In this document: one piece after another, positions 1 through 62,577 of the stretch
How the letters are laid out: the number at the start of each line of letters is the position of its first letter
How positions within the stretch are numbered: the stretch's first letter is position 1
NCBI RefSeq assembly: GCF_018446385.1
Contig: NC_055989.1
Location: 131,343,004-131,407,003, forward strand
DNA length: 64,000 nt
Source: Zingiber officinale
Taxonomy: Eukaryota; Streptophyta; Magnoliopsida; Zingiberales; Zingiberaceae
Reading direction: 5' to 3'
Program-made: the position numbers and the translations under genes
Notes under the pieces: model-generated
Database searches by the model: none
Seen by the model: the letters and a program-made list of their open reading frames with translations, nothing else
What the model was told of the DNA's origin: nothing

Positions 1-402
1 GAGCGGACAGAGTATCGTACGGTGGAAGTTTCCACCGTCACATCCGGGATATGCTCGGACGATTGCGGAATGGCGTCAGGCATGCTTTTCTGACACAACA
101 CTACCGAGGTATGTTTGGGGAAGCGTGCACGCATCGAGAAGCGTGCCCACGCCTCCCCGGGGTCCTATATAAGGACCCCCAGACTTCGACGGAGGTATGC
201 GATTCTCATCACTGTAGCCACAGTAGCGTTGCCTTGCTCTTCTTCTTCTTCACTGTCTGACTTGAGCGTCGGAGGGTCATCGTCAGGAAACCCCTCCCGG
301 CTCGGCTTCTTTGCAGGTTCGCCGGAGATCCACATCACCAGTCGAAGACAGCGGAGAGTGCCACGTCCCTAGTGTCCATCGACTCAGCGCTCGGACAGGA
401 TC
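1..402 (+). mobile_element. LTR-like fragment, probably Ty3/gypsy, 5' end outside window
   Basis: GC-rich block unlike the AT-rich DNA after it. A TATA box (TATATAA, 166-172) is followed by a stretch with the wording GACTTGAGCGTCGGAGGG, which I know from plant gypsy LTRs. The block ends near GGACAGGATCA at about 402. Upstream of the TATA lie a hairpin with 9-bp arms (19-38) and the palindrome GCGTGCACGC (123-132). No primer-binding site or gag follows, so it looks like a solo or truncated LTR. Class is inferred from LTR style only. Confidence 0.5.
159..179 (+). promoter_or_regulatory. TATA box enclosed by inverted repeat (LTR promoter)
   Basis: GGGGTCC (159-165), TATATAA (166-172) and GGACCCC (173-179) form a perfect 7-bp inverted repeat with the TATA box as the spacer. 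The same layout recurs in the copia LTR and in the LTRs of element A. Confidence 0.6.
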
Positions 403-1530
403 AGTTTGTAAGATTGAATGTATCTTATTTTTTTACCCAAAAATATGAATATGTATCCAAGATTTATAGATTTCTTTGTTAATTCTTCATTTGTCTTTAA
501 TTCATTTCTTAATCTAGCAAGTTCAAATGGTAGGTTCTAGCTGAGAACTTTGTAGCTCTTGCATGAAATGTGATTCTATCATTTAAAACTCATAAAGAAA
601 TTGTGCTACCTATTTCTTGATCTGTAGTTGCTTGGTTTCATTGTGATATTTTAACATATAGACTTACAAAACCTGGTTCTCTAGTAGATTGAGGTGTTAT
701 TGATAAAGTGAGAAACATAGATAAGTTGATAAGAACGTGTTAAAAGACGAGATAGACGGTCTTCTATTTTCTAATATTGAAAAGTAGGTAGAGAGAATTA
801 GTTACAAAATAAAGTTTGTATCACTAGAACGTGTTAAACATAGATAAGTTGATTCTGTGTCAAACTGAATGTCATATTATCATTATCATTAATCTCTGTT
901 GGTCTCAGTTATTTAGGGTCAGTTGATGAATCTATCTCCCGTTTAACCCTACAAAAGTATGTATCACTAGAAATTTTTAATTAGAAAGTAGAATTTGTTC
1001 ATTGAGTTTAATTTTTAATTAGAAAGTATATAATAATTATGTGAGTTTGCTTATTGTCTTGAGTTTAATATATAGATGTTGTATCTATTGTTAGTTTATT
1101 GTCTTTGTTAAATATATTCATTGAGTTTCATGTATTGATTAAGTGAGTTGTTTCATCTTAATTATAATGTAATAATTTTATTCTTCGCAGATCAATGTGG
1201 AAAGATATTGAAGTGGAGTTTTCTTTCCAAGAATTGACTCATATTTTCCGAGAAGATGTAATATTACTAGAAAGATTCAATCCAAAAAGAATTTTTGCTT
1301 TTGTATAAATTTAAAATGGATCCAAAGTTTGTGGATTATGTGTATATATTTTATATTTGAATTGTATGATACATTTCTGGTTTGGTCAGTTGTACTATAC
1401 TTTCATGGTATTTTAATTGATAAGTTATACTTTCATGGTATTTTAATTAGTGTCATTTATAAGGGTTTAATTAGTTAATTAGTAGTGTAAATATAATAGA
1501 CAACGGTTTTATAAATAGATCAGATTTATC
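403..1530. other. AT-rich intergenic DNA, no gene seen
   Basis: Low-complexity, stop-rich sequence with short direct repeats such as the phrase TACTTTCATGGTATTTTAATT, twice near 1400-1450. I see no coding signature on either strand. Confidence 0.6.
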
Positions 1531-1533
1531 TTT

Positions 1534-1741
1534 TACTAGAAATTTAAAAAAGACAACACTTTTTAAGCTTTGCAAAAGTGTTATTTTTGTAAAAAACGAC
1601 AACATTTTTAAAGTGTTGCAAAAGTGTTATCTTTGTAAAAAATGACAACGTTTTTTTAATTATTATTTTTAGTGGACTTTTAACAACGTTTTTTCAGTCA
1701 TATATAAAAAGCATTGTCTTTCAACTTTTTTACTTGTAGTG
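1534..1741 (+). mobile_element. CACTA-like transposon terminus (fragment)
   Basis: Repeated motifs of the form GACAACACTTTT / AAAGTGTTG (1550-1660) look like CACTA subterminal repeats. The stretch ends with TTTTTTACTTGTAGTG, the reverse complement of a CACTACAAG-type terminal repeat. No matching 5' terminus or transposase is visible, so this is a relic or non-autonomous piece. Confidence 0.4.
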
Positions 1742-2780: not shown

Positions 2781-2789
2781 AGTATCACA

Positions 2790-9910: not shown

Positions 9911-10864
9911 TGTTGGAAAAACTTGAATAGAAATATGACGTATGGTTTCAATCCTACAAAAAAAGTGAAGTCTTCCGGCTGATTCAGAACAAAGGGGGTG
10001 AGAATCCAGGGGCCGAATGACATCAACCCGAGGGGTCTTTTTGTGAACCAATTGCTTGTAAAATCAATCATGACATGATATGTCTGCATAAGACAACTTG
10101 TTGGCCAGCATACAAGACAAGAAAGGTCGCCAGCTTACCTGCACGCCACGTGGCAAGCTTGCCTGCTCGCCACGTGGCAAGCTTGCAAGCAAGTTGGCAA
10201 GCACAACGTGGCTTGCTTTGCTCGTTGTGCTTGAAAGCATAACAAAGGCTGAGGTCTATATAAGACCAGTGAGAGGATTGAAGCAGATTAAGAGAACAAC
10301 TCAAGTGATCTTTGAGTGAGAAAACTTAAGTGAGATTTGTGTGAGCTTTGTGTGAGAAGAGCTCAAGTGAGCACGTGCTTCTCTTCATCCTTGACTCCCC
10401 ATATTTCCTTCCCTTATGTTGTGCACTTCTTTTGGTCAACAGAAATAGTGATAGTTTTCGGATCTAGTTCAGATCGTCACGACAACCAGTGCTCGGTTGT
10501 GCTCGTGATCTTGCCGTTTTATCCTGGGAAACAGACGTCCACCTAATCCTCTGAGCACCGCGGAGGGGCCGAATCTGTTTTAAGGAGACAACGCTCTGCT
10601 GAACTCGGCATCCACTCTGAGTTCGTGTTGCAGCTCTCGACATCCTGTCAGCAACTCTCAGCAGCAACGTGGCGCCGCTCAACAATTCACGGTGTTCGCA
10701 ACTCATCTACTCGGCGCGTGGCTCGGCTCGCTAGAGTCGACAGTTTGAGATTATCTGCTCAAACCTACTTGATTGTAAGTTCTTGTGACTCTGGTACACA
10801 CTCAGAAGCGTGGAAAAGAGCGTCTGAGACAATCACACAGATTGTAACGGGTTTACTCCCAACA
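9911..10864 (+). repeat. 5' LTR of the copia element
   Basis: 954 bp. Contains tandem GCCACGTGGC/GCAAGCTTGC palindromes (about 10139-10190), a hairpin GCACAACG...CGTTGTGC (10201-10230), and a TATA box at about 10257 flanked by GGTC and GACC. Matches the split 3' LTR (957 bp total) with scattered, mostly transition differences. Confidence 0.9.
10139..10265 (+). promoter_or_regulatory. LTR promoter: G-box palindromes plus TATA box
   Basis: GCCACGTGGC occurs twice in tandem, each followed by CAAGCTTG. CACGTG is the plant G-box/ABRE core bound by bZIP and bHLH factors (established). TATATAA follows about 70 bp downstream, between inverted GGTC/GACC arms. Stress- or light-responsive transcription is a plausible inference. 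Confidence 0.55.
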
Positions 10865-10913
10865 AAACTTAAAACAGATTCGGTCTATTACCATAGCGGC
10901 AGAAAATGTTGAG

Positions 10914-11774
10914 ATGCAACAGGCTCAACATGTGCCGGCCTCCTCCGCGCCGATTAGGAATGTGTCAATCAATCATGGGGGAAAGCCAGAAAAATTCACA
11001 GGCGTGAATTTCAAGCGGTGGCAGCAGAAGAGGTTCTTCTACTTAACCACGCTAGGTCTGACACGTATCTTGACCGAGGAAACTCCCAAGGTTGTTAAGG
11101 GTGTAGATGAGGTGAACACTCTCCTTCTGATCGACAAATGGAACGATTCTGAGTTCCTCTGTCGAAACTACATCCTTAACAATCTTGTCGACTCACTCTA
11201 TCTTGTGTATTGTGAGATGAAAACGGCAAAGGAACTGTGGGAATCTCTGGACAAGAAATATAAATCGGAGGATGCTGGGCCCAAAAAGTTTATTGTTGGT
11301 CGTTTCCTGGACTATAAGATGAGTGACTCGAAGTCTGTAATCAGTCAAGTCCAGGAGCTTCAAGTACTCTTACAAGAAATTCACTCAGAAGGTATGACTC
11401 TGAGCGAAACCTTCCAAGTGGCAGCTATCATCGAAAAGCTACCAACTGGCTGGAAGAACTTTAAGAATTATCTGAAGCACAAGCGGAAGGAAATGAACCT
11501 GGAGGAACTTGTTGTTCGCCTTCGTATAGAAGAAGACAACAAGAATTCGGAGAGAAAATTGTTCTCTCAGGCTACTATAAAAACCAATGTTGTTGAGCAC
11601 AGACAAAGCTCAAAACGAAAGCATCCAAAATCTTCCACGACGCAACCCAAAGGACAAAACATGAAAAAGAAGTTCTTAGGGAAATGCTACAATTGTGATC
11701 GTATGGGTCACAAGGCTTCAGACTGTAAAAGGTCAAAGAAGAAAAAGCTTGAGACCAACCTGGCAGGAGAATAG
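10914..11774 (+). CDS. Copia gag (UBN2 family, zinc knuckle)
   Basis: 286-codon open frame encoding the capsid-like Gag that packages element RNA in cytoplasmic particles. An N-terminal [13 protein letters not shown] motif and central UBN2 fold are followed by a basic tail and a CCHC zinc knuckle at about residues 258-271 ([14 protein letters not shown]). All four zinc ligands are intact. The frame ends at an in-frame TAG at the gag/protease join; relatives usually read through as one polyprotein, so this stop is probably a mutation. The rest of the polyprotein follows immediately. Confidence 0.85.
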
Positions 11775-11777
11775 GAT

Positions 11778-14700
11778 ATGGATCTCTGCGCCGTGATCTC
11801 TGAGGTGAACCTAATAGGTTCCAATCCTCGGCAATGGTGGATCGATACTGGAGCCACCAGACATGTGTGCTGCAGTAAGGAGCTACTCCACAACTTCGAA
11901 GAAGTCACTGGAGATAAACTGTTCATGGGGAACTCAGCAACCTCGGACATAATGAGCCAAGGAAAGGTGGTGCTGAAGATGACCTCTGGCAAGGATCTCA
12001 CTCTGAACAATGTGCTGTATGTTCCGGAGATTCGAAAAAATCTAGTATTCGGATCACTGTTAAGCAAGCATGACTTTCGCATTGTCTTTGAGTCAGACAG
12101 AGTTGTACTGTCCAAAACGGAGTGTTTATAGGAAGGGACTATGTATCTGATGGGTTGTTTAAGCTCAATGTAATGGCCATTAGGCCCAAGATAAATAAAA
12201 ATGAAAGCTCTTCCACTTATATGCTTGAGTCTTCGTGTTTGTGGCATGGTAGACTAGGACATGTTAACTACGATGTATTGCGTAGATTAATAAACATGCA
12301 TAGCATACCTACATTCCACCTTGACCCAAAACACAAGTGTGAGATTTGTGTTGAAGCAAAAATGACAAGGTCATCCTTTCAATATATTGAAAGAAGTAAT
12401 GAACCACTTGACCTAATCCACACTGATGTGTGCGACCTAAAAGGTACGCCAATACGTGGTGGTAATAAATATTTCATCACTTTTGTAGATGATAACACAA
12501 AATACTGTTATGTGTATCTTCTCAAAAGTAAGGATGAAGCTATAGAGAAATTTGCTCTCTATAAAAATGAGGTTGAAAACCATCGTGATAGAAAGATTAA
12601 GGTGGTTCGAAGTAACCGAGGGGGTGAATATGTATCACCATTCGCTGAGTTGTCTACTAAACATGGGATCAGACACGAAACAACAGCTCCTTATACTTCC
12701 CAGCAAAATGGAGTTGCTGAGCGAAAGAAACGAACTCTAAAGGAGATGATGAATGCTCTTCTATTAAACTCTGGACTGCCAGAGTTCATGTGGGGGGAAT
12801 CTATGTTAACAACTAATTACCTTTTAAATAAGGTGCCCCGGAAGAAAATAGATAAGAGTCCTTATGAGTTGTGGAATGGAAGACAACCCTCCTACAAATA
12901 TTTACGAATGTGGGGGTATCTTGCCAAAGTGTTGGTGCCTGATCCGAAAAGGATTAAGATATGACCAAAGATTGTTAATTGCATCTTCATTGGCTATGCA
13001 CAAAACAACATTGCGTATAGATTTTGTGTGTATGAGTCACACATACCGGAGATACACAAGAACTCGATAATCGAATCGAGAAATGTCTCGTTCTTCGAGC
13101 ATGTGTTTCCATATAAGACTCGGGAGGATGCTAGCTCCTCAAAACGGGCAACCGAAACACCAGGCGAAGAAGAAGATGATGATGACGAGGAAACCATGGA
13201 GGTTGAGCCTAGACTGAGTAAAAGAGTTCGGGTAGAAAAATCCTATGGATCGGATTTTATCACATTCATATTGGAAAGTGAGCCCCAAAGTTACTCAGAA
13301 GTTGTAGGCTCTTTTGATGGACCTCATTGGAAAGAGGCAATTGCATCTGAGATAGAATCTATCTTGCAAAATCACACTTGGGAACTTGTGGATCTTCCTC
13401 CGGGAAGTAAACCACTAGGGTGTAAGTAGATCTTCAAGAAGAAAATGAAAGCAGATGACACAATCGATAAATACAAGGCCAGATTGGTAATCAAAGGATA
13501 CCGACAACGAGAAGGCCTTGATTACTTTGATACATACTATCCGGTATCTAGAATAACTTCCATTAGAGTATTGTTGGTTATCGGTGCTCTATGGAATCTC
13601 GAAATACATCAAATGGATGTAAAGACAGCTTTTCTAAACGGGGATTTATAAGAAAAAATCTATATGGACCAACCTGAGGGGTTTTCTGTATCAGGACAGA
13701 AAAACAAGGTCTGTAGATTGGTGAAGTTATTATATGGTTTGAGACAAATACCAAAGCAGTGGCATAAGACATTTGACAATGCCATGAAGGAATGTGGCTT
13801 CGAGATCAATAAATGTGATAAATGTGTCTACATGAGAACCACAGAGAGTGACTATGTCATCTTGTACCTCTATGTAGATGACATACTTATCATTGGAAGT
13901 AATGATAAAATAATCAAATCCACTAAAGATATGTTGAACTCAAGATTTGACATGAAAGACATGGGCCTAGCTGATGTGATTCTAGGAATCAAGATTCTTA
14001 GAACGACAGAAGGACTTGTTCTTAGTCAGTCTCATTACGTGGACAAGATTCTTGAGAAATTCACTAAGGGTGATACTGCGTTGACACGAACGCCGATAGA
14101 TACGAGTCAACATCTATCGAAAAATCGAGGTGAAAGTATCTCGCAGATAGAATACTCTCGAGTGATTGAAAGTCTGATGTACTTGATGAATTATACACGA
14201 CCAGACTTAGCCTACGCAGTAAGCAGACTGAGCAGATACACGAGTAATCCCGGTATTGAGCACTGGAAAGGGATAACAAGAGTACTGAGATACTTAAGGT
14301 ACACTCGTGAATATGGACTGCACTATACAAGATATCCTGCTGTGATCGAAGGATACAGCGATGCAAGTTGGATATCTGATATACAAGACTCTAAGTATAC
14401 GAGTGGATATGTCTTCACTCTAGCTGGTGCAACTATTTCCTGGAAATCTTCTAAGCAAACCGTAATAACCAGATCCACGATGGAATCTGAGTTTGTAGCT
14501 CTTGACAAATGTGGTGAAGAGGCCAAATGGCTACGACAATTCTTAGAAGATATTCCATGTTGGCTAAAACCAGTGCCGGCGATTTGCATACATTGCGATA
14601 GTTGATCAACAATCGGTCGGGCACAGAGCCATCTGTATAATGGTAAGTCTAGACATATACGTCATAGATATAATACCATTAGACAACTACTCTCAACTGG

Positions 14701-14794
14701 TGTTATCACGGTTGACTATGTGAAGTCAAAGGATAACTTAGCGGATCCGCTAACCAAGGGGTTAAATCGAGAGTTAGTTGCAAGCTCATCATAG
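11778..14794 (+). pseudogene. Copia pol (protease, integrase, RT, RNase H), inactivated
   Basis: Protease: [10 protein letters not shown], active-site DTG, near 11838. Integrase: WHGRLGH pre-integrase motif, zinc finger, and a core where the second catalytic Asp is replaced (RSNRGGEY rather than RSDRGGEY, near 12610). Reverse transcriptase keeps YVDD (near 13875) and QMDVKTAFLNGDL. RNase H contains YSDASW and ends LADPLTKG. One single-base deletion near 12113 shifts the frame. In-frame stops follow at 12964, 13429, 13651 and 14605. Apart from these lesions the protein is full length, so decay is recent. It cannot make active pol. Confidence 0.92.
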
Positions 14795-15322
14795 GAAATG
14801 GGCTTGATGCCGTTGTCAGCGATCAGTGCAAAGGACACCCAACCTATGCTGACTGGAGATCCCAAGAACTAGGTTTAAAGGGACAACTCATCTGCACTGA
14901 CTAGACACATTGTGGGGAATAGTCCAATGAAACAGTGACCAAACCAGGGTAAGCTGATAGACTTTTAATGATCAAGAAGAGTAAAGTATAACTCTTGAGG
15001 GATCACCTATGTGCGAAAGAAGTGAGGCCGCTTCGAAAAGAATTGAAGGCACAATTCGTAGAACTTCTCACAGAATCAGGTGTGTTCATGGCCAAGAATA
15101 AACACACTCATAAGACCTGAGCTATATCAGGGAGAGTCGTGGGTACACCTCTGTCCATGCTCACACCAACGGTCGAACAGTTCAAAGACCTCACATCTAC
15201 TAATCAGCCAGTGAATAAACAGAGTTTACAAGGGAAGGCTCAAAGGGTAACACCTACCTATCCTATACTCGACTCAACTGTCGAAGACTATCACACATCT
15301 TTGTTCCATTCATGTGGGGGAT
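14795..15322 (+). other. Copia 3' untranslated region and polypurine tract
   Basis: Non-coding stretch between the RNase H stop and the 3' LTR, ending in the purine tract GTGGGGGAT that primes plus-strand synthesis in this class. Confidence 0.7.
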
Positions 15323-15358
15323 TGTTGGAAAAACTTGAATAGAAATACGACATGTGGC
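15323..15358 (+). repeat. Copia 3' LTR, left piece
   Basis: First 36 bp of the 3' LTR, matching 9911-9946, cut by the insertion of element A. Confidence 0.9.
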
Positions 15359-16323
15359 TGTTGGTGCAGCGGAGACCGGCAAGAGGGGGGTGAATTGCTG
15401 AAAACAAGAAAACAAAAACTACCCTCCTCGGATTTCAACTCAGAATTAAATCAGCAATAAAAAATAACAGCAACTAAATTAATGAAACAGAAAAAGAAAT
15501 AGGAACAGAAAAGACTCAAGGATTTAACCTGGTTACAACCAAGGAGGTTGTTAATCCAGGACAGTAGAAAAGAGTGCAGTAAGAAAAATCTCCTTCTCTG
15601 AAGGCGGAGAAGCCTTTTACACTTTTGAAGCTCACTAATTGCTTAGGAATTGCTTACAGATTGATTGCTTGAGTTGTTGTTGAATTCCTAGCTCCAGGGG
15701 CCTTTATATAGGCCCTGGAAATCTTATCCCGAGAGTCCAACGCGCCTCCAACAGAGTTCAAGGCGCCTCCAACTCGATCTGCGGATAAAACTTTATCCGC
15801 AGCGCAAACGGTCAAACTGGACTGCTCAAGGCGCCTTGAACAGGCTTGAAGGCGCCTTCAAGCCTGTTCAAGGCGCCTTCAATCTTGTTTAAGGCGCCTT
15901 CAAGCTACAGTAACTTCTGCTACAGTAACTTCTGCTACAGTATTTTCCAGCTTATTTTGACTCCTTTTCTTCTTCGCTTTGGCTTCCGAAGCTCCGTTCT
16001 TTTGGGTGATTGCGGCCAACCGGAATAGGGCTCACCCGAACCCAATTCCCGGCCTTCTCCTCGAGCAGCCTTCCGTCCCGGCTTAACGTCCCTCGAACGC
16101 CGTGCACGCTCTTCACGCCCACCGGAGTACTCTTCCGCAGCTCTCTCATCCTTCGGACGCACCGAGCCCGTCGGCTCCCTTCCCGTGCCGTCCTTCTCGC
16201 TAGCTGCGTCTTCCGCTCGACTTCCTGTGCTCCTAAGCTCCTGCACACTCAGACACAGGGATCAAACACAGCAGGACCTAACCAACTTGGTTGATCACAT
16301 CAAAACTACCACGGGGTCCAACA
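15359..16323 (-). repeat. Element A 3' LTR
   Basis: 965 bp, TGTTGG...CCAACA. Minus-strand TATA box (TATATAAA) at 15710-15703 lies inside CCAGGG/CCCTGG inverted arms. U3, on the high-coordinate side, carries an array of GGCGCC palindromes (15740-15905) and a perfect hairpin GCGGATAAA/TTTATCCGC at 15781-15800. Confidence 0.92.
15828..15879. repeat. Perfect 52-bp palindrome in element A LTR
   Basis: The sequence 15828-15853 is the exact reverse complement of 15854-15879. Three AAGGCGCCTT units lie at its two ends and centre, with GAACAGGCTT spacers. The other LTR has the same structure centred at 19155/19156 with one mismatch. Confidence 0.9.
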
Positions 16324-16559
16324 ATCTCCCCCTTTTTGATGTGCATCAACCTAAGTTCAAGTTAGGGTTAAAAATAGACAAAAATAGTAATTTAAAGGTA
16401 AATTACTAAACTGATAAGTTAAACATAATTTTTGCAATTAGTAAAATTGCAACACTTTTTATAAAAAAAATAATAACAGAAATTTTAAATTTTTTCTAAC
16501 TCCACCTAAACTTGTACTTCTGTCTCCCCCTTTGATCACAGCAAAAATGGGGTCTTAAG

Positions 16560-16960
16560 AATATTCAAGTAAGATTGAAGTTTTTTGAAAATTTTATAAG
16601 TTAAAAATGAATTTTCGAAAAAAAAATTGCTAAGTTAAAATAAATTTTTCTAAAAAAAATTTCTAAGTCAAATTTTTGAATTTTCAGAAAAAATTTTCTA
16701 CCTCAATATAAATTATTTTAAAAAAAAATTCTAAGTCAAAATAAATTTTTCCCAAAAAAATTTCTAAGTCAAATTTTTGAATTTTCAAAAAAAAATTTCT
16801 ACCTCAATATGAATTATTTAAAAAAAAATTCTAAGTCAAAATAAATTTTTCCCAAAAAAAATTCTAAGTCAAATTTTTGAATTTTCAGAAAAAATTTTCT
16901 AAGTCAATAAAAAAATTTCTAAGTCAAATATTTTTTTTTTTTTAATTTTCACAATATGAC
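16560..16960. repeat. Degenerate AT-rich tandem repeat inside element A
   Basis: Units containing CTAAGTCAAATTTTTGAATTTTC and a CTACCTCAATATGAATTATT variant recur with a period of roughly 110 bp, plus shorter sub-repeats. They fill the space between gag and the 3' LTR, where pol would lie in a complete element. Confidence 0.7.
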
Positions 16961-17191
16961 TTTTTAGAATTTTAAAAAGATTTAAAAACTTTTAAAGCAT
17001 TATTTGTTTCTAGTTTAATGCTTTTTCAGAAAGTTAATTAAATATTTTCTTTCAATATTTTAGCTTCCAGGTCGTGGCGAGGCACTAGACCTTCTTGGTT
17101 ATTGGAGCAACAACCACTTCCTTAGACAAAGCTTCCATAAAGAATTTCAATGTTTAATTTTCTCACTTTAAGCTTTTTAATTTTTGAAAAA

Positions 17192-18595: not shown

Positions 18596-18646
18596 CGTCT
18601 TGATCGTAGTGCTTCAGTTGGCGATTAGTCCTTCTGAGGCGATCAG

Positions 18647-18658
18647 GCTCTGATACCA
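18647..18658 (-). other. Primer-binding site of element A (tRNA-Met type)
   Basis: On the minus strand TGGTATCAGAGC starts 2 nt after the 5' LTR. This 12-mer is the usual plant initiator tRNA-Met primer site. Confidence 0.9.
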
Positions 18659-18660
18659 CT

Positions 18661-19626
18661 TGTTGGTGCAGCGGAGACCGGCAAGAGGGGGGTGAATTGC
18701 TGAAAACAAGAAAACAAAAACTACCCTCCTCGGATTTCAACTCAGAATTAAATCAGCAATAAAAAATAACAGCAACTAAATTAATGAAACAGAAAAAGAA
18801 ATAGGAACAGAAAAGACTCAGGGATTTAACCTGGTTACAACCAAGGAGGTTGTTAATCCAGGACAGTAGAAAAGAGCGCAGTAAGAAAAATCTTCTTCTC
18901 TGAAGGCGGAGAAGCCTTTTACACTTTTGAAGCTCACTAATTGCTTAGGAATTGCTTACAGATTGATTGCTTGAGTTGTTGTTGAATTCCTAGCTCCAGG
19001 GGCCTTTATATAGGCCCTGGAAATCTTATCCTGAGAGTCCAAGGCGCCTCCAACAGGGTTCAAGGCGCCTCCAACTCGATCTGTGGATAAAACTTTATCC
19101 GCAGCGCAAACGGTCAAACTGGCCTACTCAAGGCGCCTTGAACAGGCTTGAAGGCGCCTTCAAGCCTGTTCAAGGCGCTTTCAATCTTGTTTAAGGCGCC
19201 TTCAAGCTACAGTAACTTCTGCTACAGTAACTTTCTGCTACAGTAATTTCTAGCTTCTTTTGACTCCTTTTCTTCTTCGCTTTGACTTCCGAAGCTCCGT
19301 TCTTTTGGGTGATTGCGGCCAACCGGAATAGGGCTCACCCGAACCCAATTCCCAGCCTTCTCCTCGAGCAGCCTTCCGTCCCGGCTTAACGTCCCTCGAA
19401 CGCCGCGCACGCTCTTCACGCCCACCGGAGTACTCTTCCGCAGCTCTCTCATCCTTCAGACGCACCGAGCCCGTCGGCTCTCTTCCCCTGCCGTCCTTCT
19501 CGCTAGCTGCGTCTTCCGCTCGACTTCCTGTGCTCCTAAGCTCCTGCACACTCAGACACAGGGATCAAACACAGTAGGACCTAACCAATTTGGTTGATCA
19601 CATCAAAACTACCACGGGGTCCAACA
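18661..19626 (-). repeat. Element A 5' LTR
   Basis: 966 bp, about 97 percent identical by eye to 15359-16323. TATA box at about 19012-19005 (minus), inside the same inverted arms. Upstream U3 palindrome array at about 19040-19205. Confidence 0.92.
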
Positions 19627-20547
19627 TTTCAGTCCCACAAAGAAAGTGAAGCCTTCCGGCTGATTTAGAACAAAGGGGGTGAGAATCCAGGACCCCGGAT
19701 GACATCAACCCGAGGGGTCTTTTTGTGAACCCATTGTTTGTAAAATCAGTTAGGACATGATATGTCTGCGTAAGACAACTTGTTGGCCAGCATACAAGAC
19801 AAGGAAGGTCGCCAACTTGCCTGCACGCCACGTGGCAAGCTTGCCTGCTCGCCACGTGGCAAGCTTGCCACAGCTTGCATGCAAGCCACGTTGTGGCTTG
19901 CTTTGCTCGTTGTGCTTGAAAGCAAAACAAAGGCTGAGGTCTATATAAGACCAGTGAGAGGATTGAAGCAGATTAAGAGAACAACTCAAGTGATCTTTGA
20001 GTGAAAACTTAAGTGAGCTTTGTGTGAGTTTTGTGTGAGAAGAGCACAAGTGAGCACGTGCTTCTCTTCCTCCTTGACTCCCCATGTTTCCTTCCCTTCT
20101 GTTGTGCACTTCTTTTGGTCAACAGAAATAGTGATAGTTTTCGGATCTAGTTCAGATCGTCACGACAACCAGTGATCGGTTGTGCTCGTGATCTTGTCAT
20201 TTTATCCTGGGAAACGGACGCCCACCTAATCTTCTGAGCATCGCGGAGGGTCCGAATCTGTTTTAAGGAGACAGTGCTCTGCTGAACTCGGCATCCACTC
20301 TGAGTTCGTGTTGCAGCTCTCGACATCCTGTCAGCAACTCTCAGCAGCAACGTGGCGCCGCTCAACAATTCACAGTGTCCGCAACTCATCTACTCGACGC
20401 GTGGCTCGGCTCGCTAGAGTCAACAATTTGAGATTATCTGCTCAAACCTACTTAATTATAAGTTCTTGTAACTCTGGTACACATTCAGAAGCGTGGAAAA
20501 GAACGTCTGAGACAATCACACAGATTGTAATGAGTTTACTCCCAACC
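19627..20547 (+). repeat. Copia 3' LTR, right piece
   Basis: 921 bp continuing the LTR from the point matching about 9946, again with tandem GCCACGTGGC and a TATATAA box. Followed directly by the AATAA target duplication. Confidence 0.9.
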
Positions 20548-22974: not shown

Positions 22975-24970
22975 TATTAAGACACTCCTAGAGCTAGAGG
23001 GGGATGATTAGCTCTAATCACTTTGTTGATGATGATTTGTAGTGGAAACTTGAAACAATACTAACACCATTGATTTTACTTAGTATCCACCTCTTTAAGA
23101 TGACTAAGCTAAGGGTCCACTCTCCTCACTCACAAATATATTATGAAAACCTCCTTCTAGGAGGCGGAGAAGCCTCCTACAAATGTTCTCACATGAACAC
23201 AACAAATATAAGAAATACAACAAGAATAAGGAAATAAATACAATAATAAAGGAATTTTGCTCTTAATCTATTGTTGCTATTAGGGCTATAAATGAGTTGA
23301 GCGGAGCTTTGGGGTGTTCAAACTTGTTTAATAAGGTAACCGAGCCAAGACGATCTTAAAATAAACTAAGCTTTTGAAATGATTATTCAAGCTTAGTTTG
23401 GTTTATTTTTTATGAGCTTGAGCTTGTTTGAAACTTAACTTGAGCTTGGTTCATTTAGATGTTATCGAGCTCTCAATTCAAGCTTGTTTGATTGTTTGAA
23501 ATTTTAAGTTGTTGATTGGTTATTGAGCTTAATAATTCAAACTTATTTGTTTACTTTATTTTATTTTATTATTTATTTAGCATATTGATAAGAGTTTTAT
23601 TAATAAATATAATTCGTGAACATTGTTCAAGAACGTTATTCACGAGTATTAACGAGCAAAACATATATGTGTTCAAGCTTGTTTGTTTAGTTTAACGAGT
23701 TATTTAAGTTTGTTTGTTTAATTAATCTTGTGTATATTGAATGAACATAAAAAATCTCTTACCAAGCTGAACACCAGGCTTATTTACGAACGTTTGATTC
23801 ATTTACAGTCCTAGTTGTTATGGATTGCCTCTTGATGCTTGGAAAGTGTAGCAACACTTGTTTCCAAATGCTTCAAGAACTAGTAGAGAGGGGTGGAGAA
23901 GAAGATCTATGATTTCAATCTTAAAAGCCTCTATATCTCACGGATTAGGGTTCCAATCGATTGACATTACCCTCAATCGATTGTCATGTTAGATCAAAAC
24001 AAATCTAGTTGTTCAAACTTCATAACGGCTCTTTCTACTTCCCCCAATCAATTACCTAATCAATTAACTGCTTCAATCGATCACCTGATCGATTAAGAAG
24101 TGTTTGCTCACGAATTCCTCCTAATTGATTAAACTCCTTGTAACAAAAACAACTCCCCAATCAATTACCTAATTAATTGGAGGGATGAATCGATTGGCCA
24201 ATCAATTCAGTACCTCTACGTGCACGTAATTTAGGCCCATATCAATTAGCCAATAGATTGGTGAAAGCTTAATCAATTCAACTTTCTCCTCTCTCGTGAC
24301 ACACAGCTCTCAATTGATCAGATGATTGATTGACTTTGGCCCAATCCTAACTTGCTTAACTCAAGTCTAGGGTTTCCTTGACAATCTTAGGTCAACCGTG
24401 ACCTGTTGGACTTCCCCACCAAGTGTTCGGTTAACCTTTGACCCACTTGGACTTTGCCAACTTCCTATTGGACTTCCGATCACCAAGTACAATCCTTCTT
24501 AACTCACTTAGATTTTTCTATTGCCTAACCATAGTCAGGACTTTCCTCTTGCCAATGTATAATCCTTCTTGACCCACTTGGATTTTTCTTTGCTTAACCG
24601 TAATTAGGACTTCCCTTTACCAATGTGTGGTTCTCTTTGACCCACTTGGACTTTCCCGTATCAACGTATGGTCCTCCTTGATCCACTTGAACTTTCCCTT
24701 GCTTATCCCTCGAGTTAGGACTTTACCTTGCCTAACCTCTAAATTAGGATTTTGCCTTTGCCTAACCTCTAGTTAGGACTTTACTAAGTCAACTATCAAG
24801 CCCACCATGACCTATTTGACTTTCTTCTCCTATATCTTTAAGTATCCAATCAATCTTAACCTCTTTCAGATCTTTTCCAAACATATTGTCCAAAACTCGA
24901 AACTCAAGCTCGAACCCACTCGAGTTTAGTCAAATTGGTCAACCATAACCCAAGGACTATTGTACTAATA
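22975..24970 (-). repeat. Element C 3' LTR
   Basis: Similar to 28109-29464 over its length apart from the 533-bp insertion. Holds clusters of CAATCGATTG-type palindromes, for example 23954-23963 and 23974-23983, and a run of CTTGACCCACTTGGACTTTCC-like tandem phrases (24400-24800). Confidence 0.8.
23281..23813. mobile_element. hAT-like MITE with 8-bp target duplication
   Basis: 533 bp. Ends TAGGGCTATAAATGAG and ATTCATTTACAGTCCTA are inverted copies. Flanks GTTGCTAT (23273-23280) and GTTGTTAT (23814-23821) form an 8-bp target duplication with one change, the size typical of hAT. The matching site in the other C LTR lacks it. No transposase. Confidence 0.85.
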
Positions 24971-28108: not shown

Positions 28109-29464
28109 TCTTAGGACACTCCGAGAGATAGAGGGGGTGAGTAACTTCAATTGCTTCGTTGATGATGATTTACAATGGAAACTTGAAACAATGTTAACAC
28201 CCTTGATTTTACTTGGTATCCACCTCCTTGAGGTGACTAATTCATGGGCCCACTCTCCTCATTCACATATACATTATGAAAACCTCCTTCTAGGAGATGG
28301 AGAAACCTCATATAAACATTCTCACACGAACACAAAAAATATGAAAAATATAACGAGAAATACAATAAGAATAAGAAAATAAATACAATAATAAAAGACT
28401 TTTGCTCTTGATCTCTTGTTATTGTGGATTGCCCGCCTCTTAATGTTGTGGATTGCATCTTGATGCTTGGAAAGTGCATCAATACTTATCTTTAAATGCT
28501 TTGAGAACTGGTGGAGAGAGGTAGAGAAGAAGATCCGTGATTTGAATTTTTGAATGCCTCTATATCCCGCGGATTAGGGTTCTCAATCGATTGACCTTAC
28601 CCCTATCGATTGCCTAATCGATTGGAGAGCTGAATCAATTGGCCAATCGATTAAGCACCTCTCTATGCACATGATTTAGGGCCCCAATCAATTAGCCAAT
28701 TGATTGGTGAAAGCTTAATCAATTGGCTAATCGATTCAGCCTTATCCTCTCTCGTGACACAGCTCTCAATCGATCAGTTGATCAATTGACTTTGGCCCAA
28801 TCAATTATCCAATCGATTACTCAACCCTAACTTGCTTAACCCAAGTGTAGGGTTCTCTTGCCCAACCTTGGTCAACCGTAATCCACTAGGACTTCTCCAC
28901 CAAGTATCCGGTCAACTTTTAACCCACTTGGACTTTGTCAACTTCCTGTTGGACTTCCAATCATCAAGTGCAATCCTTCTTGATTACCTACTTGGATTTT
29001 CCTCCTGCTTAACCATAATCAGGACTTTTCTCTTGCCAATGTGTGATCCTCCTTGATCCACTTAGACTTTTTTTTGACTAACCGCAGTTAGGACTTCCCT
29101 TTGCCGACGTGTGGTTCTCCTTGACCCACTTGAACTTTCCCTTTCCCTTTCCAACGTGCAGTCCTCCTTGACCCACTTGGACTTTCCCTTGACTAACCCT
29201 CGAGTTATGACTTTACTTTGCCTAACCTCTGAGTTAGGACTTTGTCTTTGTCTAACTTTCAGTTAGGACTTTACCCAGTCAACTATCAGGTCCTCCATGA
29301 CGTACTTGACTTTCCGCTTTTATATCGTCAAATATCCAGTCAACCTTGACCTATTTGACCTCTTTCAGATATTTTCCAAACATATTATCCAAACATCGAA
29401 ACTCAAGTTTAGTCAAACTGATTAACCTTGATCTGAAAACGATTACACCAATAATCTTCCAACA
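28109..29464 (-). repeat. Element C 5' LTR
   Basis: 1356 bp. CAATCGATTG at 28584-28593, with several more ATCGATTG variants to 28830, lies upstream (minus sense) of a TATA-like GATATAGAGG at about 28566-28557. Confidence 0.8.
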
Positions 29465-30344
29465 AGTCCAACTTAGATCCAATCTGAAATCTAAGTTTAG
29501 ATCAAGATTAAATCCCGATCTTAGTTAGACAAATCTAATTCACAAATATATAAATTGTTCATGCATTTGTGCTAACTCTATTTTGCAGATACTTTTGTTA
29601 TTAGACTAACATGTTTTACAGGAGTTTGAAGTGAAAAGTCAAGCTATAATGAACAGTACTCCATGCGCCTCAGTTGGTTAGAGGCACCTCTAGTGAATAG
29701 AAGCCCCTCGGGTACTTGGAGGCACCCCAAAGAGGAAGCAGTAGAGGCACCTCAAATGACTAGAGACACCTCGAAACTGATAAGCGTGAAGGATGAGCTT
29801 TGACGCATGGGAGGCGCCTCAGATCCATTGGATGTGTCGTCAATACCTTATAAAAGAAGTCTTCGGTCATAGCTCAAGACATCAATTTTTGATAAAGTTT
29901 CTACTCGATTCCACTATGCCATCATCTTGCTACTGCTTTGCGACCGTACTGCGTTGAACTCATGCTCGAGCCAACTTCAACAGCAAGAACCATGTCGGCG
30001 TCGAATTTCATTGTTGGCAAAATAATTTATTGTTGATTATTATTTTATTTACATAAGAAAGTGTAGTGTGTTACACTTTCTTCAATATCTTTGTATCCAA
30101 TCTCTCTAACCGAAGGTTTTTAAGAGAATTTAGTGAATTATCCATTGGAAACATCCCAAGGGAGCGTGAGTCTTGGACTAGTAGTTGTTAGGCTACGAAC
30201 CAAGTAATTGATCATGTGTTGTTCTTTATCTTGTCTCACTAGGCTTTTATTCCACGAAGCACTCGTTTTTGATAAGTTTTTAAACAAAAAAAAGTTTTTA
30301 AAATTACACGTGATTCACCCCTCTCACGTAGAAACGATCTTACA
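29465..30344 (+). mobile_element. SIRE-like LTR (element D), right piece
   Basis: Continues the LTR from 22974. Has GAGGCGCCTC (29811-29820) plus decayed GAGGCACCTC copies (29680-29770), then TATAAAA at about 29855. Ends near GATTCACCCCTCTCACG (about 30330). Confidence 0.5.
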
Positions 30345-54554: not shown

Positions 54555-55422
54555 TGTGATAGTTTTACTGATCGACTGTAGACTTTACTCTGCTCGACTA
54601 TAGACCTCGATTCGCTTTGTAAAATAAGTAATGTCAGTGCTAAGTCAGGGAAGAGGTCCCCAGTATTGGTCCTCCGACGTTTAAGTTAGTCATCGGAATT
54701 ATATAAGAAGCGGAGCAACAATAGAACTAGTATCAAATAGTAATAACGCGTACTTCCACCAGTGATGAATCCCCCCTTTATATAAAGCTCTACTGCGTGA
54801 TGTGCACGTTTCTCTAGATGTGGGTGTATTTTCCGATACATCCTATCAAAAAACCTGTCAGGAAAGTTCCTTTGACACCATACCTTAACAGGGCATGCAT
54901 ATCTCTGATAAGAAAGTAAAAGCTTCCGTCGTACGATCCGCCTGTCGACCATGTCTCGAGTCAACGACACCCAAAAGGATGTCAAGAGATACTGCAGTGG
55001 TCCCGTTGCTTGGTCGAGCGGGATAGCTGCTCGACCAGGACTCCGCTTCATCCTTGACCAGGTCTCATTGCTTGGTCGAGCGGGATAGCCACTCGGCCGG
55101 GACCCCTCCGCTTTGTCGACCTTAGTTGTTCTCCCGTGCAGTGACTGTGTAGTAACATGTCCTCCTCCGTTCGGCCAAGCTATACGAGCTCCTTTGGCGT
55201 CCTACTGTTCCGTACTGGGTGTCGGCTGTCTTACGTATTATCTTGAGCTAGACATGTCGCTTGGACATGCCTCCCACAGGTCGGGCCCTGACTGTCCCGA
55301 CCTACCGTCACAATTGTCCTCCGTTCGGCCCTTTGACACCTAGGTGTTGACCTCCTTGACTTTGACCTCCACCTTGGCAATTGACCCCGTGCCAGGTGGG
55401 CCTCCCTTTATCATCCATCACA
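54555..55422 (-). repeat. Gypsy 3' LTR
   Basis: 868 bp from TGTGATGG to CTATCACA (minus sense). TATA-like CTTTATATAAAGG at about 54790-54778. Inverted GGTCGAGC/GCTCGACC (55012-55036) and a second TTGGTCGAGCGGGATAGC copy (about 55071) lie upstream. The end has AACTTAAACGTCGGAGG, similar in style to the 1-402 LTR. Confidence 0.75.
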
Positions 55423-57787: not shown

Positions 57788-58836
57788 TGTTGGTGCAATC
57801 GACCCAAGTTTGATCGGTATGATCATGGTTTTGATATGTGTGTCAAAGAATTTAAATTAGGCTTTCATATTGGTTTGATATGTGTGTTTGGGTCATGCAG
57901 GATTTGGTGAAACACACATGAGGAGCTTGGTGTGGCCAAGTTTAGGAAGCTCATCCAAGGGCTCATATCCTTGAGTCGGTGAAGGATGGTGTGGAAGACA
58001 TCCGAGGGACCGCCGGACGAGGAGCAATGCAGTGGAGCCGAGGGAAGCGGACTTCAAGACAACGTGAAGGATGACACAGAGATGAGTCATGGGCTCGGGT
58101 GCATCTGAGGGACGAAGGCCGAGGAAGAGGGCTTCAAAGGCAACTCCGGAAAGGATGAATGGAGTGAATGTAAGGTACCAGTCGACTGGTCCAAATTCAT
58201 GAAGAGCACAGAATGGTTCTGTGCTTGTCGGTTGCGAAGACCAATCGACTGGTGTTGGCACCAGTCGACTAGTATATGGTCGTTGGCAGAAAATGAGTTC
58301 TACAAAGAGTCGTTGACTGTGTCTAACGGCTATATCAGTCGATTGGTGCATAGACCAGTCGACTGATGTCGGGTTGAGTTTATTTGTTGATCAACTCTCT
58401 CCACTTATAAAAGAGGAACTTTGGGACATGAAGGAGGTTACTGATTATTGTTGAATCATTCCTTTGTCATTGTCCAAAGCTTCCAAGTCATACTCTTCTT
58501 CCTACTTTTAATCTACATCTTGTAAAAGAATAAGAAGAGTGCTTTGTGAGAGATTGTACTCCACCGAGAAGGAGTAAGCTCTAGCCGGAGATTGCCGAGG
58601 ACTGATTCATCGAAGGATCAAGGGTTCGTCCACCTCAAGGACACGCCGTGGAGTCGGAGCAAGCAATCTCTGAACCACATAAAGAAATTGTGTTAGCGTG
58701 TGTATTCTCTCTTGTTTGTTTTCATTGTTTTAGTTTTCATATTTCCGCTACGCACTAATCTTTGTAAAGAAGCGATTGAAGTTGGGGGTGACCTAGCTAT
58801 CCAACCCCCCTTCTAGTCGGCCACCGATCTTCTACA
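57788..58836 (+). repeat. Element B 5' LTR
   Basis: 1049 bp, TGTTGG...CTACA. Palindrome ACCAGTCGACTGGT at 58177-58190 and near copies at about 58240, 58270, 58335 and 58355. Hairpin GCACAGAA/TTCTGTGC at 58206-58224. TATAAAA at 58406-58412. Confidence 0.92.
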
Positions 58837-58838
58837 AG

Positions 58839-58850
58839 TGGTATCAGAGC
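58839..58850 (+). other. Primer-binding site of element B (tRNA-Met type)
   Basis: TGGTATCAGAGC, 2 nt after the LTR; the same sequence and spacing as in element A. Confidence 0.9.
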
Positions 58851-60549: not shown

Positions 60550-61488
60550 AGGATTTTAGGTTTAGTCAACCATTGAAATCATAATTCAAATTCTTGAAAA
60601 ATGATTGACTTGAGACTTTAAGGGGGAGCACTTAGCCTTGATAGAAATTCATGATAAAGAAGGCTAAGTAAAGGTTACCTTTATTATATCTCACAATGAA
60701 TTGCATTCTATTTCTAAATATAAATGTGAGATGATAAGATGATACTAATAATTCACTTATGTTTATGACATTTTGATGAATTATGAAATGTATCAATTTT
60801 TTAGTAATCATAGACTAACTATGAGGAAAGCAAATGTTTAATTAATGGACATCTTGCCCATAGATCATAGTTGGATATTTTAAATGTTTTGAAAATAATT
60901 CTATGTTTTATTTACAGTGAATAGTTATTTTGAAACATATGATTGCAAAACTGGGTTTAAAATTGATATATAATTGCATGTTTTTGAGATTTGGCTAAAA
61001 TTTCAAAAATACTTTGACTTTTCATGAAAACATATTTTTTTCTAGTTAAAGGACATTTCAAGAAATATATTTTCCGAATTTCATGGTTTTTCAAATTTTT
61101 TGGAATTTTTTATGCATTTCTGAGTTGGTTGCAAAAGGTTGAAATTCGATTTCAGAATATACCAGTCGATTGTGTCAGCTACCAGTCGACTGGTACCAGC
61201 TTTCCAGCATACTGTTGTTTTCTGAGATCAAATTTTTTGGTCAAAATTTGGTCAGACTTGATGCCATAGAATGTATGATTGTTTGGTACAATTTTTTTTT
61301 ATGGTGTCAAAGGGGGAGAAATGGATAGGTTTAAGTTAGAAGCCTTTATTTCCATACTTGTGTGCAAAACTTGAAAATTAAGGTTGAGAGCATATGTTTA
61401 GGGGGAGCTTGATTTTATGTTTCATGTTTACATATTGCTTGTAATTTTCAAAGTTATTATTTGTGTCTAACTTAAACATATTACCACA
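60550..61488 (+). other. Element B non-coding interior
   Basis: AT-rich space between gag and the polypurine tract where pol would normally be. Contains another perfect ACCAGTCGACTGGT at 61181-61194 next to a decayed copy at 61161. Confidence 0.6.
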
Positions 61489-61506
61489 CATCAAAAAGGG
61501 AGAGAT

Positions 61507-62577
61507 TGTTAATGCAATCGACCCAAGTTTAATCGATATGATCATGATTTTGATGTGTGTGTCAAAGAATTTAAGTTAGACTTTCATATTGGTTTGATAT
61601 GTGTGTTTGAGTCATGCAGGACTTGGTGAAACACACATGAGGAGCTTGGTGCGGCCAAGTTTGGGAAGTTCGTCCAAGGGCTCGGATCCTTAAGTCGGTG
61701 AAGGATGGTGTGGAAGACATCCGAGGGACCGCCGAACGAGGAGCAATGGAATTGAGCCGAGGGAAGCGGACTTCAAGGCAACGTGAAGGATGGCACGGAG
61801 AGGAGCCGCGGGCTCGGGTGCATCTGAGGGACGAAGGCCGAGAAAGAGGGTTTCAAAGGTAACTCTGGAAAGGATGAGTGGGAGTGAATGTAAGGTACCA
61901 GTCGACTGGTACTTGGACCAATCGACTGGTCCAAATTCACGAAGAGCACAGAATGCTTCTGTGCTTGTCAGCTGCGAAGACCAGTCGGCTGGTGTTGGCA
62001 CCAGTCGACTAGTATTTGGTCATTAGCAGAAAATGAGTTCTGCATAAAGTCGTTGGTTGTGTCTAACCGCTACATCAGTCGACTGGTGCATGGACCAGTC
62101 GACTGATGTTGAGTTGAGTTGATTTATTAATAAACTCTCTCCACATATAAAAGAGGAGCTTTGGAACATGAAGGAGGTTACTGATTATTATTGAATCACT
62201 CATTTGTCATTGTCCAAAGCTTCCAAGTCATACTCTTCTTCCTACTCTTAATCTCCATCTTGTAAAAGAAGAAGAAGAATGCCTTGTGAGAGGTTGTACT
62301 CCATCGAGAAGGAGTAAGCTCTAGCCAGAGATTGTCGGGGACTGATCCACCAAAGGATCAAGGGTTCGTCCACCTCAAGGGCACGCCGTGGAGAAGGAGC
62401 AAGCAATCTTCGAACCACGTAAAGGAATTGTGATAGCGTTTGTATTCTCTCTTGTTTGCTTTCATTATTTTAGTTTTCTTATTTCTGCTACGCACTAATC
62501 TTTTATAGAGAAGTGATTGAAGTTGGGGGTGACCAAGCTATCCAACCTCCCTTCTAGCCAGTCGCTGATCTCCTACA
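61507..62577 (+). repeat. Element B 3' LTR
   Basis: 1071 bp, highly similar to the 5' LTR. It has one extra palindrome unit (ACTTGGACCAATCGACTGG, about 61911-61930), which explains most of the length difference. TATAAAA at 62146-62152. Confidence 0.92.

Follow-up and report, generated by a model that had tools for sequence, protein, structure and literature searches.

Several LTRs in a 64,000-nucleotide stretch of the ginger (Zingiber officinale) genome, referred to here as the window, carry short palindromes just upstream of the TATA box, and the palindromic word differs from family to family. A preliminary description had taken the families to be unrelated and had proposed convergent or fast-switching promoter modules. 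Are these palindromes more than chance, how are the families that carry them related, and what could preserve symmetry while the word itself changes?

We classified the LTRs by two Sirevirus anchors: a 5' LTR/PBS junction reading CA / A[TG]TGG / TATCAGAGC, and the PPT AGGGGGAG followed by AT and then by the TG of the LTR start. The PBS junction alone is not specific to Sireviruses, as one element (N6) has CA/ATTGG/TATCAGAGC yet a PPT reading AGTGGGAG. In family A, whose 5' LTR (18661..19626, minus strand) and 3' LTR (15359..16323, minus) are 97.7% identical, both anchors match exactly, with CA/AGTGG/TATCAGAGC at 18658 and AGGGGGAGAT directly followed by TG at 16333, both on the minus strand; its 2.3 kb internal region contains gag domains only (Retrotran_gag_2 and zinc knuckle, Pfam). 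The LTRs of family B (57788..58836 and 61507..62577, both plus) share 88.6% identity, with an exact PBS junction at 58839, again with AGTGG, and a PPT/attachment site at 61497 that is one base off; no Pfam family was found in the ORFs tested from its 2.7 kb internal region. Family C is decayed: read from the sequence, its 5' LTR (28109..29453, minus) has GA for CA at its end and TA for TG at its start, the PBS junction is GA/AGTGG/TATTAGAGC, and the PPT side reads AGCGGGAG AT TA, with one change in the PPT and one in the TG. Its 3' LTR (22977..24970, minus) is split by an insertion (~23276-23815). Judged by these anchors, families A, B and C are Sireviruses (Ty1/copia), members of one genus; family D is probably one too. 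The description of the families as unrelated was therefore wrong, and convergence between unrelated families is rejected for A, B and C. The strong cases thus come from a single genus, for which the trait has been described (PMC2829016).

The palindromes are organized as arrays of repeated motifs (RM). In family A, copies of AAGGCGCCTT spaced by 21 bp (15828..15900, minus) include a perfect 52-bp palindrome (15828-15879), and a degenerate proximal pair (15732..15773, minus) lies 33 and 54 bp upstream of TATA. Two hairpins of other sequence were seen in the same LTR: a GATAA hairpin (15779..15802, minus) between the two RM clusters, and a 7-bp stem (15693..15719, minus) whose loop holds the TATA box (15702-15710). 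The 5' LTR of family B has five units of CAGTCGACTG at ≤2 mismatches (58177..58365, plus; TATA at 58406), and its 3' LTR has three pairs at 20-bp spacing (61897..62109, plus; TATA at 62146), of which the TATA-proximal pair forms a 16-bp stem. Further copies, read from the sequence, lie outside U3 in the linker ahead of the 3' LTR (61161..61197, plus), where an unsystematic look for multiple PPTs also gave a second AGGGGGAG at 61400. The CAATCGATTG array of family C spans ~28584-28830, with a TATA-like site near 28565, and RM copies occur in its 3' LTR from 23954 on. For family D the array alone was delimited, not the LTR ends: seven units of GAGGCGCCTC at ≤2 mismatches (29662..29820, plus; TATA at 29849), four of the six gaps being 19 bp. 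Its sole perfect stem of at least 8 comes after TATA, and the upstream array is visible only as degenerate units.

Three other loci had been grouped with these families. The copia element at 9911-20546, typed by RVT_2, rve and Retrotran_gag_2, is not a Sirevirus, lacking both TATCAGAGC next to the 5' LTR end and AGGGGGAG ahead of the 3' LTR; its 5' LTR (9911..10863, plus) has two G-box palindromes GCCACGTGGC at 10145 and 10169 and a TATA box at 10257. The supposed gypsy palindrome turned out to be a stem, TGGTCGAGC/GCTCGACCA, with a 9-nt loop (55011..55037, minus), in a fragment for which we found no partner LTR and no Pfam domain in the ORFs tested. The truncated LTR-like fragment at 1-402 has GCGTGCACGC at 123..132 (plus) and TATA at 166, and it too had no partner LTR. 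Exact copies in the window number seven for AAGGCGCCTT, three for ACCAGTCGACTGGT, four for CAATCGATTG, one for GAGGCGCCTC, four for GCCACGTGGC, two for GGTCGAGC, and one each for GCTCGACC and GCGTGCACGC. Thus all strings named in the preliminary description exist, and U3 palindromes do exceed shuffles (below), but two of the strings also occur outside LTRs (ACCAGTCGACTGGT at 61181 and CAATCGATTG at 25600) and the gypsy one is not a palindrome. A CpG centre was found in five of the seven strings (A, B, C, D and copia), but the fragment's string is centred on GC and the gypsy pair has no palindromic centre at all. The window is also rich in AT-rich palindromes.

Beyond the window, we collected 23 LTR starts: 15 consecutive exact PPT places (among the matches listed), all within the first 1.8 Mb of contig C1, six PPT matches from tiles and two from the window. 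Left out were other one-mismatch PPT matches, judged to be non-Sirevirus junctions, and one LTR (L007 9451) with too little tile remaining; the exact PPT pattern biases the sample to well-preserved elements. Removing L031, L035, L037, L038 and L043 (no or doubtful TATA) and L012 (many TATA-like sites) left 17 LTRs, in which, where several TATA matches were present, the box was picked by our judgement. The grouping of LTRs (A lineage, F1-F5) is likewise our own, from the BLAST table and shared LTR starts. Over the 400 bp that precede TATA, hairpin-forming repeats account for 17.9% of the sequence across the 17 Sirevirus LTRs, versus 0.5% in dinucleotide shuffles, which do not keep tandem repetition. 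In this region 13 of 17 LTRs had a higher coverage than any of their 60 shuffles, as did none of 15 further upstream and none of 17 downstream of TATA, so both the excess over shuffled U3 and its confinement to the stretch before TATA held in the Sirevirus LTRs tested. By a cruder score, which set the most repeated palindrome of each LTR against those of 40 shuffles, 16 of 23 LTRs passed (13/15 of the consecutive C1 set, 3/8 from tiles and window), and seven did not (L034, L043, L005, L007, L012 and both L015). For L042 this score picked CGGTCGACCG, from a 41-bp tandem that lies far upstream and is distinct from its CGGGCGCCCG units. Elsewhere in the genome, 250 kb of sequence held 79 CG-centred 10-bp palindromes with at least four G/C versus 28.2 expected (2.8x), as against 1.24x for GC, 1.11x for TA and 0.51x for AT centres; 13 of the 79 were TGGCCGGCCA, which is not a Sirevirus RM. 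Genome-wide, ACCAGTCGACTGGT occurs at 22,812 places versus 5 for the reversed string. We conclude that the palindromes are genuine and well in excess of chance.

LTR copies lacking the Sirevirus PPT octamer (N1, N2, N4-N9) gave a mixed picture: in four of eight, hairpin content was higher than in any of 40 shuffles, the hairpins being a few isolated ones and not a repeated array. N6 and N7 are mutually related and have a Sirevirus-like PBS junction, and N6 has a TGGCCGGCCA palindrome on either side of a TATA box.

The arrays have a recurrent geometry. RM units lie ~12 to 275 bp upstream of TATA, mostly in pairs 19-21 bp apart centre to centre (12 bp in some families), and each hairpin arm is often a palindrome by itself. 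At ≤2 mismatches, unit centres stand 33, 54, 122, 143, 164 and 185 bp from TATA in family A and 45, 65, 139, 159, 222 and 242 bp in the family B 3' LTR; family C has 12 units between 23 and 249 bp, and family D seven between 33 and 182 bp. The distal and proximal distances are 122,143 and 33,54 in A, 123,144 and 33,54 in L044, 113,132 and 14,34 in L032, 111,130 and 14,33 in L033, and 112,131 and 33 in L042, which belongs to another family. Similar distances are therefore found despite different words, AAGGCGCCTT in A and L044 and CGGGCGCCCG in L032, L033 and L042. In this respect the preliminary description was right: form and place are similar between families, here related ones, and the words differ. 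The pair spacings of 19-21 bp approximate two helical turns; we do not claim helical phasing of all units, as the 12-bp families and the gaps between clusters (48, 63, 68, 74, 79 and others) share no phase. A strict 4-nt spacer was also weakened: it was seen in 28/28 units of GATCGATC and 29/36 of GATCGGTC within a 3-5 nt range, and in 17/29 and 17/25, respectively, when up to 30 nt were allowed. TATA lies in the loop of a stem of at least 7 in 6 of 23 LTRs, where 0.87 would be expected for randomly placed sites, but the A lineage supplies five of these six, and we rejected this as a general rule.

Changes in the stems tend to be two-sided. Among 28 distinct units of GATCGATC, the outer pairs 1-3 are complementary in 93, 89 and 89% of cases, versus 56-58% with arms swapped between units; among 36 distinct units of GATCGGTC, pairs 2-3 are complementary in 86 and 92%, versus 51 and 58%. 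None of 2000 shuffles reached the observed pairing for either word, although these counts overstate independence because the units are related by descent. Genome-wide, and with expectations calculated by us under independence, the symmetric double change 5/10 of the B motif occurs 815 times versus 101 (~8-fold), the symmetric double 3/12 occurs 282 times versus 120 (2.4-fold), and a non-symmetric double 540 times versus 220 (2.45-fold). As the 3/12 double shows no excess over the non-symmetric control, we discarded rapid copy-over correction of palindromes as an explanation.

The phenomenon is known in other plants. Sirevirus RMs, family-specific and palindromic, have been published by Bousios 2010 (PMC2829016), and share with the ginger arrays their palindromic form, several copies per LTR, one word per element, a position upstream of TATA and additional linker copies in some elements. 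The Tnd-1 RM in its Table 3, ACAATCGATTGT, includes CAATCGATTG of family C, and the Vitis RM CGGTCGACCG is one symmetric pair of changes away from CAGTCGACTG of family B. There, CGG-CCG is given as the core of all RMs but that of Tnd-1; in ginger it is present in CGGGCGCCCG of F3/F4 and missing in A (AAGGCGCCTT), B (CAGTCGACTG), C, D (GAGGCGCCTC) and GGATCGATCC. Since Tnd-1 lacks it as well, it is the signature that fails, not membership in the class. What the ginger data show is that words differ between related families with mirror symmetry retained; pairing at a repeated spacing, two-sided changes and TATA distances are measured here and do not appear in the portion of PMC2829016 consulted. 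The LTR palindromes of maize Sireviruses (Ji, Opie and Giepum; Bousios et al. 2016, Genome Research, as cited in the parts seen of PMC5311732 and PMC10760457) resemble the ginger arrays in forming a palindrome-rich cis-region of highly variable sequence. Classic copia elements also have repeated or symmetric tandem U3 boxes upstream of TATA, among which the parts of PMC2829016 seen name the symmetric box I of Tnt1. The copia G-box pair at 10145 and 10169 is of this kind; such boxes are few in copy compared with Sirevirus arrays, and the element in the window has neither a Sirevirus PBS nor a Sirevirus PPT.

To account for the presence, position and symmetry of the motifs, the switch of word with symmetry kept and the similar TATA positions, we propose that Sirevirus U3 RMs are an upstream promoter module of short dyad-symmetric words, often paired, each dyad putatively bound by a homodimeric host factor, a reading for and against which we give about equal weight. 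Such a factor (or two adjacent dimers) would bind each dyad and drive transcription. Its need for symmetry would hold transposing lineages to symmetric words, whereas the word itself may change when a different factor is used or when silencing by small RNAs against one particular sequence makes escape advantageous. More tentatively, and with considerable doubt, the paired-dyad frame at similar TATA distances may be what is conserved, the word in it having been replaced repeatedly with both half-sites changing together. This would have given at least seven words or stems in this genome, as the words followed different homodimeric host factors or evaded sequence-specific small-RNA silencing. Hairpins of other sequence occur in the same region (the GATAA and TATA hairpins and a CTAGCCGTTGC stem), and a single dimer-site model leaves them unexplained.

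Such unrelated stems side by side are what one might expect if the arrays act as nucleic-acid hairpins: U3 lies in the 3' end of the element RNA, and the stems would serve stability, packaging or 3' end formation, secondarily feeding small-RNA silencing. The 400 bp before TATA fold as RNA more stably than their shuffles do (mean z -6.3, below -3 in 13/17), with means of -1.8 further upstream (3/15) and -0.55 downstream (0/17). By reading, the outer stems of the GATAA hairpin differ between LTRs; their pairing is complete in A, L032 and L033, extends over most of the stem in L044 and is partial in L007 and L015_1942. Maize Sirevirus palindromes are reported as small-RNA hotspots (in the parts seen of PMC5311732 and PMC10760457). 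However, a hairpin needs neither similar TATA distances between families nor arms that are often palindromic themselves. Sense-strand stem mismatches, moreover, are about equally G.T and A.C (26 versus 23; 15 versus 12 in the 450 bp before TATA), and thus give no sign of RNA-strand selection, a comparison of low power because most copies are decaying. We therefore dropped RNA-only selection through a G.U bias, and the broader hairpin explanation seems to us unlikely.

Symmetry could also be mutational, produced without selection by reverse transcriptase template switching at short inverted repeats, arm copying and snap-back inverted duplications. The mutually reverse-complement spacers of the 52-bp palindrome in A and the 24-bp stem of L041, made of two whole units, look snap-back-like, and the 5/10 doubles are in excess; the 3/12 doubles, however, are not above the non-symmetric control, the process should act anywhere in the element whereas stems exceed shuffles only before TATA in the LTRs tested, and the similar TATA distances and the CG centre would be unexplained. 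We consider this origin quite unlikely. Chance, or plain tandem duplication of an incidentally palindromic word, is very improbable: Tandem Repeats Finder does pick up the A and copia arrays, AT-rich palindromes are frequent in the window and the best-palindrome score fails in 7/23 LTRs, but dinucleotide shuffles do not attain the values observed in 13/17 LTRs, different palindromic words are repeated in different families, and the changes are two-sided.

If the proposed promoter module preserves its geometry as words switch, ginger offers within a single genome a natural series of promoters differing in one dyad word, and it becomes directly testable whether promoter turnover is driven by host factors or by host silencing. 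If it does not, ginger still extends a described motif class by a plant lineage and by new words, and shows that CGG-CCG is not a general signature of that class. In maize, Sireviruses account for a large share of the genome (PMC5311732 and PMC10760457, parts seen), and their PPT sites are very abundant in the ginger assembly, which includes both haplotypes: CAAAAAGGGGGAGATTGTT matches exactly at 44,572 places, versus 0 for the reversed control. In an unsystematic look for a polyC integrase signal, a further Sirevirus feature, C-rich runs were seen distally in many of the LTR copies.

Families A, B and C in the window (contig C4, 131343004-131407003, of a genome of 3,090,333,446 bp in 211 contigs) are Sireviruses, and family D is probably one. 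By the primer-binding (PBS) and polypurine-tract (PPT) criteria in excerpts of PMC2829016, A and B have the exact Sirevirus 5' LTR/PBS junction, CA/AGTGG/TATCAGAGC, and C an altered one, GA/AGTGG/TATTAGAGC. The PPT/attachment sequence AGGGGGAGAT|TG is exact in A, has one mismatch in B, and reads AGCGGGAG AT TA in C. Family A encodes the Pfam domains Retrotran_gag_2 and zf-CCHC, and no Pfam family was found in the B ORFs tested. Family D has an array and TATA box of the same kind as the others, with undefined LTR ends.

The preliminary description had reported family-specific, mostly CG-centred palindromes about 30-250 bp upstream of the TATA box in supposedly unrelated LTR families, and had read them as convergent or fast-switching promoter modules. 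The observation was largely right and the interpretation partly right. Every string it named is present in the window; the arrays are degenerate, the exact copies being merely their best members. Allowing up to two mismatches, unit centres lie 33-185 bp upstream of TATA in A (6 units), 45-242 bp in the 3' LTR of B (6), 23-249 bp in C (12) and 33-182 bp in D (7). Placement within an LTR did not hold for one copy of ACCAGTCGACTGGT (61181, in the linker before the 3' LTR) nor for one of CAATCGATTG (25600, outside the C LTRs), and the "gypsy" site consists of a stem closed by a 9-nt loop. A partner LTR was found neither for the "gypsy" fragment nor for the one at 1-402.

The phenomenon is already known. 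According to excerpts of PMC2829016, a highly repeated palindromic motif (RM) is a trait of Sirevirus LTRs, absent from classic copia; its words mostly differ among 13 elements (Table 3 entries include Tnd-1, ACAATCGATTGT, and Vitis, CGGTCGACCG), and it clusters upstream of a conserved TATA box and marks CpG islands. Passages of PMC5311732 and PMC10760457, both citing Bousios 2016, describe maize Sirevirus palindromes as variable, fast-evolving small-RNA hotspots. Since the trait was thus already published, the arrays here are an independent rediscovery. The host added to it is very probably new. No report of Sirevirus palindromes in ginger was found among the top-ranked literature matches, which is weak evidence of absence, and no word beginning with "sire" occurs in PMC8342452, the haplotype-resolved ginger paper (3.09 Gb of contigs, 22 pseudochromosomes, Copia 33.66% of the genome). 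The analysis further contributes words that lack the CGG-CCG signature, the frequent arrangement of units in pairs, two-sided changes within units, and TATA distances that stay similar when the word switches.

Shuffle controls were applied to 23 Sirevirus LTR starts (15 consecutive exact PPT places on contig C1, 6 in sampled tiles, 2 in the window). The best-repeated palindrome exceeded all 40 shuffles in 16 of them: 13 of the 15 on C1 (L031 and L033 narrowly; L034 and L043 failed) and three of the other eight (L010, A and B; L005, L007, L012 and both L015 copies failed). Among 17 LTRs with an assigned TATA box, inverted-repeat coverage (the share of bases lying within perfect inverted repeats with arms of 8 or more and loops of 0-12) averaged 0.179 over the 400 bp upstream of TATA; in dinucleotide shuffles the average was 0.005. 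All 60 shuffles were exceeded there in 13/17 LTRs (not in L034, L044, L007 and L015_1942), in 0/15 further upstream and in 0/17 after TATA. Mean RNA-fold z was -6.3, -1.8 and -0.55 in the same three regions, with values below -3 in 13/17, 3/15 and 0/17. In Sireviruses, shuffled sequence therefore does not yield as many palindromes, nor are they equally common away from TATA, in line with the preliminary description.

In six LTRs of the A lineage (L032, L033, L044, L007, L015_8683 and L015_1942), the initial 140-326 bp can be aligned with A at 79-87%. A and L044 repeat the word AAGGCGCCTT, the other five CGGGCGCCCG. In A and L044 the units stand 33/54 and 122/143 bp from TATA, in L032 and L033 14/33 and 111-132 bp; some units are absent or displaced relative to TATA in L007 and both L015 copies. 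Paired units are mostly spaced 19-21 bp apart in A, L044, B, D and our family groupings F3 and F4, and 12 bp apart in C and the GGATCGATCC arrays. In the GATCGATC and GATCGGTC families each unit is a stem whose spacer usually measures 4 nt. Between RM clusters, a GATAA..TTATC hairpin is common to A (15779-15802), L032 (LTR position 636), L033 (498), L044 (542), L007 (496) and L015_1942 (517), with no match in L015_8683; its outer stems vary between these LTRs and are fully paired in A, L032 and L033, mostly paired in L044 and partly paired in L007 and L015_1942. Three related LTRs (L030, L036 and L041, at LTR coordinates 1126, 1201 and 1148) share an identical 11-bp stem, CTAGCCGTTGC(gac)GCAACGGCTAG, just upstream of TATA and unrelated to their RM.

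Two-sided change was analyzed in distinct units from the tiles and C1 LTRs, leaving out the window. In 28 GATCGATC units, outer pair 1 is G-C in 19 and A-T in 7, pair 2 G-C in 19 and C-G in 6, and pair 3 T-A in 18 and C-G in 7. In 36 GATCGGTC units, pair 1 is always G-C (36/36), pair 2 T-A in 22, G-C in 6 and C-G in 3, and pair 3 C-G in 26 and T-A in 7. In both families complementarity was higher with the unit's own arm than with a swapped arm, a result matched by 0 of 2000 shuffles; the units are related by descent, so the two-sided changes are not independent events. A looser version of the same effect appears in 224 stems built on a 6-bp core, where the values at pairs 7-10 are 0.41-0.47 vs 0.21-0.27. 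Genome-wide, ACCAGTCGACTGGT occurs at 22,812 places (reversed control, 5). Its position-5 symmetric pair is changed on one side at 1,527 and 1,512 places and on both at 815, 8-fold the roughly 101 expected by our arithmetic from genome counts assuming independence; for position 12 the figures are 1,662, 1,643 and 282, 2.4-fold the expected 120 or so (reversed control of the both-sides string, 80). A non-symmetric double (266 and 274 vs about 220 expected, 2.45-fold) measures age and subfamily heterogeneity, and by this comparison one symmetric pair is in excess and the other is not. The 8-fold excess perhaps reflects a separate subfamily with a CAATCGATTG core, and decaying copies show no sign of correction towards symmetry.

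The reading of these sequences that we consider most likely, with about an even chance of being right, is that the arrays would form a dyad-symmetric upstream promoter module, read as DNA, whose symmetry transposing lineages keep. That they act instead as RNA or cruciform hairpins is unlikely; the strongest point for a structural over a site-based reading is the presence of unrelated stems side by side, including, in five LTRs of the A lineage, a stem with TATA in its loop. Perfect stems of at least 7 bp enclose TATA in their loop in 6/23 LTRs (A, 15693-15719; window 159-179; the LTR starts L032, L033, L007 and L015_8683) vs 0.87 expected at random positions, and the stem sequence in A is unlike that in its relatives. 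Reverse-transcriptase template switching as the source of the symmetry seems slightly less likely again. Chance, which has on its side the LTRs that failed the shuffle comparisons and against it those that passed, is highly improbable.

In an independent count, CG-centred GC-rich 10-bp palindromes reach 2.8 times the third-order Markov expectation in 250 kb of tiles (window excluded), and other centres 0.51-1.24 times. The commonest such words are GGATCGATCC (14), TGGCCGGCCA (13), CAATCGATTG (8) and CGGGCGCCCG (8); TGGCCGGCCA is not a Sirevirus RM. Of eight LTR copies that lack the Sirevirus PPT octamer, N5, N6, N7 and N9 exceeded 40 shuffles and N1, N2, N4 and N8 did not; among Sirevirus or Sirevirus-like copies, b3, A, B, C5' and C3' did, and b1 and N3 did not. 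The shuffles were also exceeded by D, through a stem downstream of its TATA, by the gypsy-like stretch and by the 1-402 fragment. The PPT of N5-N7 is AGTGGGAG, not the Sirevirus octamer, and the Sirevirus-like PBS junction is exact in N6 and has one change in N7. In N6, TGGCCGGCCA occurs twice about 190 bp apart (L021, 5852 and 6042; L022, 3201 and 3394), and in L021 one copy precedes and one follows the TATA box.

The element at 9911-20546 is a copia (RVT_2, rve, gag) in which neither the Sirevirus PBS nor the PPT was found. Family A is inserted about 35 bp inside its 3' LTR (15323-20546). Each copia LTR has a pair of G-box palindromes, GCCACGTGGC (at 10145-10178 and at 19827-19860); the two members are spaced by 24 bp, lie some 83 and 107 bp upstream of TATA and are part of a larger imperfect inverted repeat. 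The window also contains an exon of a PTR2-family gene (44154-45038) with eight genome matches, paired on C4/C3 (100 and 99%), C5/C6, C21/C22 and C17/C18, the pattern expected if the assembly contains both haplotypes. A 393-bp direct repeat (62961-63353 and 63608-64000; 99.7% identity, 254 bp apart) has its second copy cut by the window end.
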